From Fibrobacter intestinalis (GTDB taxonomy: Bacteria; Fibrobacterota; Fibrobacteria; Fibrobacterales; Fibrobacteraceae), in NCBI RefSeq assembly GCF_900167415.1, contig NZ_FUWU01000007.1:1-64000 (forward strand): DNA of 64,000 bases. Direction: 5' to 3'. Each line of letters begins with the position of its first letter. The stretch's first letter is position 1. This document shows, piece after piece, positions 9,369-23,932 of the stretch. The notes under the pieces were generated by a model that made no database searches, was not told the DNA's origin, and worked only from the letters and a program-made list of their open reading frames with translations. The position numbers and the translations under genes are program-made.

Positions 9369-9383
9369 GTTTCAAAATGAAAC
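9369..9383. promoter_or_regulatory. Palindrome GTTTCA-N3-TGAAAC upstream of groES
   Basis: GTTTCAAAATGAAAC is a perfect inverted repeat. The identical 15-mer lies before dnaK and close variants lie before grpE and clpB. Its centre is about 84 bp upstream of the -12 element at 9459-9460. A further TGAAAC half-site follows at 9390-9395. Proposed binding site for a sigma-54 activator. Confidence 0.8.
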
Positions 9384-9445
9384 GTTCGATGAAACGAATC
9401 GCCTTTTTACTTTCATTTTGCGCCGTTTTTAATGGAAAATCAAAT

Positions 9446-9461
9446 TGGCACGATTCTTGCA
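9446..9461 (+). promoter_or_regulatory. Sigma-54 promoter of groES-groEL
   Basis: TGGCACGATTCTTGCA is a complete match to the sigma-54 consensus TGGCACG-N4-TTGCA. The predicted start is near 9472, giving a leader of about 33 bases before the groES ATG. No CIRCE inverted repeat is present. Confidence 0.88.
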
Positions 9462-9504
9462 TACTTCCGAGCGGTTGAAAATTCAACAACGAGGTAACAA
9501 CTTT

Positions 9505-9786
9505 ATGATTAAGCCACTTGCAGACAGAGTTCTCATTGAACCGGCCCCGGCCGAAGAAAAGACCGTCAGCGGTCTCTATATTCCGGACAACGCCAAAGAA
9601 AAGCCCATGCAGGGCAAGGTGATTGCGGTTGGCCCCGGCAAAAAGGACGAAAACGGAAAATCCATTCCGATGGAAATCAAGGTCGGCGACCAAGTTCTTT
9701 ACGGCAAATACAGCGGAACGGAAGTTTCCGTCGAAGGCAAGGATTATCTGATTGTCCGTGAAAGCGATGTATTCGCGATTCTTTAA
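9505..9786 (+). CDS. groES: Co-chaperonin GroES
   Basis: The 93-residue lid subunit of the GroEL/GroES folding chamber. [20 protein letters not shown] at the N-terminus, and [16 protein letters not shown] and [15 protein letters not shown] further on are standard. An in-frame ATG at 9445 would begin inside the promoter; the ATG at 9505 has GAGGT upstream and matches the family start. groEL follows after 31 bases and is co-transcribed. Confidence 0.97.
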
Positions 9787-9817
9787 CAGGTAACAAGTTT
9801 ATTTAGGAGAAGACAAA

Positions 9818-21203: not shown

Positions 21204-21255
21204 AGCACAAAAAATCCGACCCGGAAAACTCCGAATCGGAAATGCATTTTCCCCT

Positions 21256-23802
21256 CTATCCTATAATTTGGAATTCACCGTCGCTGAAATCCATCGTACA
21301 GGGCTTTTCCGGTTGCACGTCACCGGCGAGAATCGCGTGGGAAAGTTTCCGTTCCACTTCCCTGTCCAAAAATCTCTGGATGGGACGCGCTCCAAATTCC
21401 GGGCTATACGACTTGTCGGCAATTTCCTGCAACGCGGCATCTGTCGCCGACACGATATAGCCTTCGCGAGCGGCCCGTTCGGCAAGATTCTTGAACTTGA
21501 GAGCGACAATCCGGCGAATTTCCTCTTTGCTCAGCGCCTTGAAAAGCAGAACTTCATCCAGACGGTTCAAAAATTCCGGGCGGAAGAATCCTTTCAGGCG
21601 AGGCATTACGTCGTCCATGGAGACCTCTCCGCTCTTGCCGAACAAGTCGGAACCCAGATTGGAAGTCATCAGGATTATCGTATTTTTGAAATTCACCGTG
21701 CGACCTTTGCCGTCCGTCAAGCGACCATCATCTAGCACCTGCAACAAAGCGTTGAATACATCCGGATGCGCCTTTTCCACTTCGTCGAGAAGCACCACGG
21801 AATACGGTTTCGTGCGAACCGCTTCGGTAAGCTGCCCACCTTCTTCGTAGCCGACATATCCCGGAGGCGCGCCTATCAAGCGGGAAACGGAATGCTTCTC
21901 CATGTATTCGCTCATGTCGATGCGGATAACGGCGCTTTCGCTGTCAAAAAGTTCTTCGGCAAGAGCTTTCGCCAGTTCCGTTTTACCGACGCCCGTAGGT
22001 CCCAGAAAGAGGAAGCTGCCCACCGGTGCATTCTCCCGAGAAAGTCCGCTACGGTTCCGCAAAATCGCTTCGGACACCGCAGACACAGCAGAATCCTGCC
22101 CGATGACTCGTTCATGCAGTCGTTTTTCCAAGTGGAGGAGCTTCGCCCTTTCCGTTTCGCGCAGACGCGTCACAGGGATTCCCGTCCAACGGCTGACCAC
22201 CTGCGAAACCGTTTCTTCCGTCACTTCCTGCGTCAATTCACCATTTTCGGAATCCTGACGTGCCAACTTTTCCAATTCGCCGACGCGCTTTTCCAAATTC
22301 ACAATCGTATTGTATTTGAGTTCCGCAGCACGCGCCAGATCGTAGCGGGATTCCGCCTGTTCCATTTCTTCGCGCGCCTTGTGCAATGCTTCCTTGGCAT
22401 CTTTCAGTTCGTTGAACTTGGAGCGGCGTTCCTGCCATCTCGCCTGCATCGCCGAAACTGCGGCTGAGGTCGTTTTCAATTCCTCCCTCAACTCGGCCAG
22501 ACGCTTTTTGCTTTTTTCGTCGCTTTCCTTGGCCAGAGCCTGTTCTTCGATTTTCAGCTGCAATTCCTTGCGTTGCAGGTTGTCCAAATCTTCCGGCACC
22601 GTATCCAGCTGCGTTTTCAGCATACTCGCGGCTTCGTCTATCAAGTCGATGGCCTTGTCCGGCAAAAATCGGTCGGCAATATAGCGTCCCGAAAGTTTTA
22701 CCGCAGCAACCAAAGCGTCGTCATGGATTCGCACGCCGTGATGCGATTCAAAGCTTTCCTTGACACCGCGCAAAATCGAAATCGCTTCATCCTGAGTCGG
22801 CTCGAAAACGGACACCGGCTGGAAACGCCGTTCCAGAGCTGCATCCTTTTCAATGTAACGCCGATATTCCTGCGTCGTCGTCGCTCCAATGCAATGCAGT
22901 TCCCCACGAGCCAATTTGGGCTTGAGCATATTTCCCAAATCCATGCTGCCCTCGGTTTTTCCCGCCCCCACAATCGTGTGCAATTCGTCGATAAAGAGCA
23001 GCGTATTGCCATCTTCGTCCAAGGCGTTCAACACGCTTTTCAGGCGTTCTTCAAAATCGCCACGGTATTTGGCGCCTGCCATCAACGCAGACAAGTCCAA
23101 AGAAAAGAGCTTTTTGCCCTTGAGCGCATCGGGAACGTCGCCCTTGTGGATACGCATCGCCAATCCTTCGACAATCGCCGTTTTGCCGACGCCAGGTTCT
23201 CCGACAAGCACCGGATTATTTTTCGTCTTTCGAGAAAGAATCAAAATGACCCGACGGATTTCTTCTTCACGACCAATCACCGGATCGAGCTTGCCCTCTT
23301 CGGCGAGGGCGACCAGCTCCCTGCCGTACAATTTGAGCGGCGATTCCTCTTCGGCGACGGCGGCGGCACTCATCGGATCCGAAAGCCAGGTTTCCACCAC
23401 TTCCGCACTGCCCAGCGCATCTTCAAAAATTTTCACCATGCGGCGATCTTGCGCAAAACGCATCAAGGCGATCAGCATATCGCTGGGGCTTGCGGGCTGC
23501 GAGTTCTTGCGACCTTCCTGAATGGCGGCACGAAGCACCCGAGAAAGATCGGCATCCGGCGTTCCCGCATCCGGATTGACTTCCACCAATTTCGGTACGG
23601 CATCCAAAAAAGAAGCGAGCTTTCCCCGCATTTCCTTGGTGTCCGCTTTTTTCGCTCGAAAAAGATTTTTCAGCCGGGCATCGGGGGACTCCAAAAGGCC
23701 GAACGCCAAATGGACCGTTCCCAAATACGAATGCGATTTCTTGTCCATCAGTTCCTGCGCTTTCGCCAGAATCTTTTTCGCATCGCTTGTAAATTCTTCC
23801 AT
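21256..23802 (-). CDS. clpB: Disaggregase ClpB (AAA+ chaperone)
   Basis: The 848-residue protein has a Clp N-domain (about residues 1-145) and a first AAA+ module with Walker A GEPGVGKTAIVEG. A long coiled-coil M domain (about 385-510) marks ClpB rather than ClpA or ClpC. The second AAA+ module has GPTGVGKTELAKALAEELF and VVLLDEVEKAHPDVFN, and GARPIQRFLDREVERKL near the end is the C-terminal signature. It works with DnaK-DnaJ-GrpE on aggregated proteins. A canonical sigma-54 promoter and the GTTTCA-N3-TGAAAC palindrome lie upstream, as for the other chaperone genes. Confidence 0.95.
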   Translation of the reverse strand: MEEFTSDAKKILAKAQELMDKKSHSYLGTVHLAFGLLESPDARLKNLFRAKKADTKEMRGKLASFLDAVPKLVEVNPDAGTPDADLSRVLRAAIQEGRKNSQPASPSDMLIALMRFAQDRRMVKIFEDALGSAEVVETWLSDPMSAAAVAEEESPLKLYGRELVALAEEGKLDPVIGREEEIRRVILILSRKTKNNPVLVGEPGVGKTAIVEGLAMRIHKGDVPDALKGKKLFSLDLSALMAGAKYRGDFEERLKSVLNALDEDGNTLLFIDELHTIVGAGKTEGSMDLGNMLKPKLARGELHCIGATTTQEYRRYIEKDAALERRFQPVSVFEPTQDEAISILRGVKESFESHHGVRIHDDALVAAVKLSGRYIADRFLPDKAIDLIDEAASMLKTQLDTVPEDLDNLQRKELQLKIEEQALAKESDEKSKKRLAELREELKTTSAAVSAMQARWQERRSKFNELKDAKEALHKAREEMEQAESRYDLARAAELKYNTIVNLEKRVGELEKLARQDSENGELTQEVTEETVSQVVSRWTGIPVTRLRETERAKLLHLEKRLHERVIGQDSAVSAVSEAILRNRSGLSRENAPVGSFLFLGPTGVGKTELAKALAEELFDSESAVIRIDMSEYMEKHSVSRLIGAPPGYVGYEEGGQLTEAVRTKPYSVVLLDEVEKAHPDVFNALLQVLDDGRLTDGKGRTVNFKNTIILMTSNLGSDLFGKSGEVSMDDVMPRLKGFFRPEFLNRLDEVLLFKALSKEEIRRIVALKFKNLAERAAREGYIVSATDAALQEIADKSYSPEFGARPIQRFLDREVERKLSHAILAGDVQPEKPCTMDFSDGEFQIIG

Positions 23803-23851
23803 ATAAACCTCCCGGATCCTTGCGGATCCATTCTATTTTCTGCCGCCATTA

Positions 23852-23867
23852 TGCAAAAGCCGTGCCA
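23852..23867 (-). promoter_or_regulatory. Sigma-54 promoter of clpB
   Basis: On the minus strand the site reads TGGCACGGCTTTTGCA, a complete match to the sigma-54 consensus with GG-N10-GC spacing. It lies 49 bases before the clpB ATG at 23802. Confidence 0.88.
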
Positions 23868-23917
23868 CTTTGAAATCCGCACGAAAATGCGAAAATCCGG
23901 AGTCCGACGATTCCAAC

Positions 23918-23932
23918 GTTTCATTCTGAAAC
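23918..23932. promoter_or_regulatory. Palindrome GTTTCA-N3-TGAAAC upstream of clpB
   Basis: GTTTCATTCTGAAAC has both 6-bp arms identical to the groES and dnaK sites and a different three-base spacer. Its centre is about 72 bp upstream of the -12 element (23853-23854 on the minus strand). Confidence 0.82.

Follow-up and report, generated by a model that had tools for sequence, protein, structure and literature searches.

Accounts of how heat shock controls the main chaperones usually invoke sigma-32 or repressors such as HrcA and CtsR. Sigma-32 (RpoH) positively controls groESL, dnaKJ, grpE, clpB, and htpG. Promoters that depend on another sigma factor, sigma-54, need an activator. The subject here is an activator-driven sigma-54 version of chaperone control, met in the first 64,000 nucleotides of contig NZ_FUWU01000007.1 of Fibrobacter intestinalis (assembly GCF_900167415.1), a stretch referred to below as the window. 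In it, the genes groES, grpE, dnaK, and clpB each have a sigma-54 promoter and a copy of the palindrome GTTTCA-N3-TGAAAC.

An example for a sigma-54 heat-shock activator is HsfA of Myxococcus xanthus, a phosphorylated NtrC-like protein that activates the heat-shock gene lonD (PMC9109919). In addition, PMC12316311 reports computed enrichment of sigma-54 sites before the genes for GroES, GroEL, GrpE, DnaK, and DnaJ in Bacteroidota and Planctomycetota. Among the papers searched, none describes a heat-shock response run by sigma-54 in Fibrobacter or elsewhere in the gut-dwelling phylum Fibrobacterota, and none names an activator or operator for it.

The comparisons described below make it very probable that the window holds part of a phylum-wide, sigma-54-dependent chaperone regulon. 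The regulon would comprise groES-groEL, grpE, dnaK (with dnaJ), clpB, and htpG, with a candidate activator acting from the palindrome in response to protein-folding stress. That folding stress is the trigger we only infer.

Promoters and Palindromes in the Window

The strict sigma-54 pattern TGGCAY-N5-YTGCW was searched on both strands of the window, and expectations were taken from 100 first-order Markov resamplings. Five sites were seen, against a mean of 0.12 expected. Four of them are the promoters of groES, grpE, dnaK, and clpB, where a first-pass annotation of this DNA had placed canonical -24/-12 elements, and all four have the GG-N10-GC spacing that sigma-54-dependent promoters require. 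The same annotation described palindromes 63-84 bp further upstream, with exact arms at three genes and 13 of 15 positions at grpE, and saw no CIRCE site. The coordinates bear out the matches, and the spacing holds when measured from the palindrome centre to the GC of the -12 element. No CIRCE-like sequence occurs in the window, even with up to five mismatches allowed. The features are as follows.

9369..9383, unstranded: palindrome GTTTCAAAATGAAAC upstream of groES, the proposed activator site; exact match, with an exact copy before groES in congeneric genomes too
9446..9461, plus strand: groES sigma-54 promoter TGGCACGATTCTTGCA; strict pattern, identical sequence in most congeners
9505..9786, plus strand: groES; Pfam Cpn10
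9818..11449, plus strand: groEL; 69-87% identity to GroEL over the phylum
11515..11529, unstranded: degenerate palindrome GTTTCAAAATAGAAC upstream of grpE; 2 mismatches
11571..11586, plus strand: grpE sigma-54 promoter TGGCATACATTTTGCT; strict pattern
11634..12287, plus strand: grpE; Pfam GrpE
12276..12290, unstranded: palindrome GTTTCAAAATGAAAC upstream of dnaK, overlapping the final grpE codons; exact match
12342..12357, plus strand: dnaK sigma-54 promoter TGGCACAATTTTTGCT; strict pattern
12392..14311, plus strand: dnaK; Pfam HSP70
14460..15596, plus strand: dnaJ; Pfam DnaJ
21256..23802, minus strand: clpB; Pfam ClpB domains
23852..23867, minus strand: clpB sigma-54 promoter TGGCACGGCTTTTGCA; strict pattern
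23918..23932, unstranded: clpB palindrome, reading GTTTCAGAATGAAAC on the minus strand; exact match, conserved in genome G001 (L011)
3736..3751, minus strand: fifth canonical sigma-54 site, at a type-III glutamine synthetase gene, serving as control; strict pattern, no palindrome nearby

The fifth site lies about 33 bp upstream of the likely GTG start of the glutamine synthetase gene, and is a nitrogen-type sigma-54 target near the chaperone genes. Because this site has no palindrome, the palindrome marks the chaperone subset and not sigma-54 promoters generally.

Elsewhere in the window, positions 7105-8682 (plus strand) encode a fused AIR-synthase-like (ThiL-type) and ThiN protein, followed by a thiamine-phosphate synthase gene at 8697-9335.

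Conservation and Spacing of the Palindrome

The 3.29 Mb home genome (G000) contains just four exact palindromes. All four copies stand before chaperone genes: they precede groES, dnaK, clpB, and htpG, the last lying outside the window. As a control, the same pattern read backwards occurs once. The fourth copy agrees with an earlier prediction that htpG would belong to the regulon. The further members predicted with it, hsp20, lon, and clpP, do not appear among the exact sites examined.

The expected conservation before orthologous chaperone genes is found in congeners, in the family, and across the phylum. In five congeners, all 11 exact palindromes precede groES, clpB, or htpG. Within the family Fibrobacteraceae, 52 of the 57 exact sites examined lie upstream of groES, grpE, dnaK, clpB, or htpG, and several of its genomes have exact palindromes at grpE, where the home copy is degenerate. 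Across Fibrobacterota, 67 of the 85 exact sites whose neighbourhood was read precede one of these five genes, and the exact palindrome is present in 122 of 168 genomes. By name, the records with a palindrome include Fibrobacter, Fibrimonadaceae, and Chitinispirillales. Exact palindromes at non-chaperone genes (L027, L029, L034-037, L044, L048, L279-283, L298, L299, L317) were set aside, as they look like chance or coding matches. At L292 the contig ends directly after the sigma-54 site; L285 is assigned neither to the chaperone sites nor to the chance or coding group.

Distances from the palindrome to the -24 element are mostly 55-57, 64-70, 76-80, 86-90, 97-100, and 120-122 bp, thus rising in steps of about 11 bp. 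With the downstream htpG sites left out, a Rayleigh test on 33 distinct gene/offset pairs gives p ~3e-6 at a period of 11 bp, a value uncorrected for relatedness and for the scan over periods. The proposed activator site is therefore in helical register with the promoter. At many groES promoters, a second palindrome lies 33 bp away.

The Candidate Activator

The home genome has one match to the sigma-54 DNA-binding domain (PF04552, C36:37141-37614, E 2.9e-52), and sigma-54 is present in 162 of the 168 phylum genomes. In G067, G083, G108, G128, G129, G135, G012-G015, and G019 the match to this domain is split in two, as if it bore an insertion.

Five true sigma-54 activators are encoded in the home genome. 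The regulator had been expected to lie outside the window, and the candidate is indeed on another contig (G000:C82:8628-10037, referred to as L019). It consists of a receiver-like domain, an AAA+ domain with the GAFTGA motif (PF00158, E 6.9e-67), and a Fis helix (PF02954, E 8.3e-15), which are the domains of an enhancer-binding protein. In palindrome-bearing genomes with only two or three activators, drawn from three families, the L019 type is the sole type in common. Only G059, with a completeness of 83%, departs from this.

A profile of the L019 type was searched against 30 genomes sampled over all Fibrobacterota families. In 28 of them a single outlying ortholog scores 468-713 bits, while the remaining activators reach 417 at best. 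Completeness is 83% and 86% in the two genomes without an ortholog. Wherever the C-terminus of the ortholog is intact, in 38 cases, the recognition helix reads R-[AST]-T-[LI]-W-R-K. In the activators of family f2, the protein sequence reads as an intact Fis domain placed after a long linker. No NCBIfam activator family (NtrC, AtoC, NifA, PrpR, PspF, ZraR, and others) reaches its curated cut-off on the candidate, the best being 351 bits against 558.6 for NtrC.

The position of the gene also links it to chaperones. In 10 of the 28 genomes it follows dnaJ, nine times at -4 to +83 bp, in families f1, f2, f3, f4, f5, f13, and f14. In the dnaK-dnaJ cluster that includes the activator gene in G166 and G167, the promoter of dnaK has a palindrome with one mismatch and a sigma-54-like site, an arrangement that would close a feedback loop. 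The regulator is thus probably this so far unnamed sigma-54 activator, and we strongly infer that one enhancer-binding protein, encoded by a single-copy gene, activates from the palindrome.

The Recognition Helix in Other Bacteria

When 84,980 genomes were scanned for the palindrome together with a sigma-54 promoter, 102 stretches were returned, of which 80 were listed. Among the matches listed, recognisable Fibrobacterota are at groES or dnaK, except L118 at a contig edge, and over 20 others belong to prpB of Oxalobacteraceae, with PrpR encoded alongside. A chaperone match from a record titled as Bacteroidota was not among these 80 of 102.

Considering only activators with a complete C-terminus encoded in such loci, the helix R-x-[ST]-[LIVF]-W-[RK] is found in 39 of 41 from other bacteria, or 17 of 19 when PrpR is left out, again among the matches listed. 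Among Fibrobacterota paralogs, 7 of 60 have the same helix (Fisher p = 6e-10, with related sequences included, so that the counts are not independent). In the home genome, L019 is the only one of the five activators to have it.

Some of these loci are of interest in their own right. PrpR is divergent at Oxalobacteraceae prpB loci, with a matching helix, in L115, L122, L125, L137-L140, L165, and others. In L141, L166, L178, L127, and L187, from Nitrospirota-like and other bins, an activator with an RTSLWR helix lies beside the palindrome promoter; a gene for a small protein of about 160 amino acids comes next in four of these five loci. In the unclassified bins L172 and L175, dnaK-groES has a sigma-54 promoter and two palindromes about 33 bp apart, possibly representing the system outside the phylum.

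The Receiver-Like Domain and a Possible Sensing Step

NtrC-type response regulators that are phosphorylated have an acidic pair and a phospho-aspartate. In all activator orthologs aligned, the conserved acidic pair is incomplete. The phospho-aspartate position is D, H, S, N, E, C, or A depending on the lineage, and two lineages (f7/g21 and f8/g31) have no receiver-like domain. Given these three features, phosphorylation is probably not the switch that the orthologs have kept in common.

The simplest guess for the sensing step is chaperone titration, a tentative proposal whose chances fall somewhat short of even. It is favoured over phosphorylation because the receiver-like domain is degenerate or absent and because the gene is linked to dnaJ. 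In this model, free chaperones would keep the activator inactive, and unfolded proteins would titrate the chaperones away and so allow activation. Activation at the promoter itself very probably takes the following course: Fis dimers of the candidate bind GTTTCA-N3-TGAAAC, its hexameric AAA+ ring reaches sigma-54 through looping of the DNA, and ATP hydrolysis opens the closed complex.

Other Heat-Shock Regulators in the Phylum

Sigma-32 was not found over its family cut-off in any of the 168 Fibrobacterota genomes, so a sigma-32 regulon is not recognisable there. HrcA was found in 32 of these genomes, and is absent from the home genome and the rest of Fibrobacteraceae. With no hrcA gene in the home genome and no CIRCE element in the window, the chaperone genes there do not form an HrcA/CIRCE regulon.

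Where HrcA is present, groES has CIRCE and lacks a sigma-54 site (14 of 14). In 12 genomes without HrcA, groES has a sigma-54 site in nine, CIRCE in two (both without detected HrcA), and neither in one. This alternation looks like an exchange of regulators at groESL in which the sigma-54 system took the place of HrcA/CIRCE. In L259, L260, and L268, all from family f4, groES has a sigma-70-like promoter with CIRCE, the palindrome about 90 bp further upstream, and nothing nearby that convincingly resembles a sigma-54 site.

Alternative Explanations

Several observations weigh against a sigma-54 activator on the palindrome as the driver of these genes. The htpG palindrome lies on the downstream side of the -24 element, and not upstream as the first-pass annotation had it for the chaperone promoters. 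The distance is 115-117 bp in congeners, compared with 52-53 bp in the home genome and in the Fibrobacter-like genus g6. The groES gene of family f4 has a palindrome but no sigma-54 site, upstream of a sigma-70-like/CIRCE promoter, and groES of G049 has a sigma-54 site with palindromes only at three mismatches. The activator was not detected in G044, G006, and G059, all of them incomplete (83-86%). Its gene in the home genome adjoins genes for a PAS-histidine kinase and a receiver, not chaperones, and this copy keeps the aspartate at the phosphorylation position. Finally, the activator gene had been predicted to have the same site in its own promoter, and this is the case in none of 28 genomes; instead, in some lineages the gene lies behind dnaK-dnaJ, whose promoter bears the palindrome. 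A supposed own-promoter palindrome, L317, was rejected since it lies inside coding sequence.

The htpG and f4 sites could mean that a separate repressor or accessory protein occupies the palindrome while the sigma-54 activator binds elsewhere. This is improbable, as helical phasing and placement 40-110 bp upstream at groES, dnaK, clpB, and grpE are traits of activator sites, and in unrelated bacteria the palindrome beside sigma-54 promoters accompanies sigma-54 activators with the same helix. Enhancers downstream of a sigma-54 promoter are also known, as at rocG of Bacillus subtilis (cited in PMC3844500). Equally improbable is binding by another activator of the home genome, of which the likeliest is L021 (C58), a short PspF-like AAA+/Fis protein that a chaperone might inhibit as PspA inhibits PspF. 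L021 has no sensory domain, an architecture that fits control by a partner protein, and orthologs exist in several Fibrobacteraceae (G050, G059, G145, G147, G152). However, it was not found in G060 (94% complete) or G051, although these genomes carry the palindrome, at grpE and groES. The group closest to it consists of Fibrobacteraceae and one long-branch protein, whereas the palindrome is phylum-wide, and its helix, SRGSLCYQL, lacks the W common to palindrome-adjacent activators elsewhere. L021 and the remaining three activators were rejected as palindrome binders on distribution and helix.

A different question is whether the trigger is heat or misfolding at all. The kinase and receiver encoded before the activator could instead drive it by phosphorylation, in response to growth state or nutrients. 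Besides the home genome, G152 and G064 have a histidine-kinase-like frame before the activator gene, and HsfA of Myxococcus is itself phosphorylated (PMC9109919). On the other hand, no kinase adjoins the gene in G050, G051, and G060, and the dnaJ-linked lineages have dnaJ there; the phosphorylation site is unconserved, and its domain has been lost in two lineages. Moreover, nearly all targets are chaperones of the cytosol, and in seven families the activator gene stands by dnaJ. A trigger of this kind is unlikely. Lastly, palindromes might pair with promoters by coincidence in A+T-rich upstream DNA. Allowing up to two mismatches, the palindrome is indeed not enriched in the window (9 seen, 5.1 expected), and its significance therefore comes from the exact matches. 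The restriction to chaperone genes genome-wide, the conservation across families, and the phased spacing refute coincidence, whose chance is close to nil.

The preferred explanation, a sigma-54 chaperone regulon under the candidate activator, keeps the core of the first-pass annotation: that sigma-54 and a palindrome-binding activator run the chaperones is supported, and its sequence-level predictions hold apart from hsp20, lon, and clpP, the own-promoter site, and the position at htpG. A broader proposal goes further, and the chances for and against it are about even. Here, sigma-54 would be the cytosolic heat-shock sigma factor of the whole phylum, acting through a dedicated, unnamed activator family that arose inside the dnaK-dnaJ operon or was recruited into it, and groESL would have been rewired repeatedly from HrcA/CIRCE. 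If true, an unphosphorylated activator held by chaperones would be the sigma-54 counterpart of the DnaK/sigma-32 feedback loop.

The findings matter in three ways. Now that an operator, a promoter, and a candidate regulator can be named, experiments can directly test how cellulose-degrading rumen bacteria respond to heat. Within a single phylum, one conserved set of genes seems to have changed its regulators wholesale. A rule for DNA recognition also emerges, pairing the helix R-x-[ST]-[LI]-W-R with GTTTCA half-sites and connecting unrelated sigma-54 activators, including PrpR.

Comparison with Known Systems

Sigma-32. Both systems exert positive control over the same gene set. Sigma-32 differs in being a dedicated factor of the sigma-70 family.

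HrcA/CIRCE. HrcA controls groESL and dnaK, is often encoded in the chaperone cluster, and uses an inverted repeat at the promoter; it occurs in other Fibrobacterota families. However, it represses sigma-70 promoters at TTAGCACTC-N9-GAGTGCTAA, whereas the home system uses sigma-54.

PspF/PspA. PspF, a sigma-54 activator linked to stress, answers to a partner protein and not to phosphorylation, and is a model for the sensing step proposed for the candidate. It differs in responding to envelope stress, in having no receiver-like domain, and in its target genes. The candidate scores 244 bits against the PspF cut-off of 443.6.

PrpR/prpBCD. Here GTTTCAN3TGAAAC lies 43-65 bp before the sigma-54 promoter, and the Fis helix RTTLWR[RK]L matches. 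The sensory domain of PrpR is its own, and its target, the 2-methylcitrate cycle, and its phylum are different. PrpR and the Fibrobacterota activator probably share DNA recognition only.

Myxococcus HsfBA. This system also has an NtrC-like activator of the sigma-54 type for a heat-shock gene. By its description it is set apart as a phosphorelay acting on lonD and on motility and secondary-metabolite genes, with control of the main chaperones not shown there (PMC9109919).

Predicted promoters in Bacteroidota and Planctomycetota. The main text of PMC12316311 does not mention Fibrobacter, and its passages on these promoters name no activator or operator.

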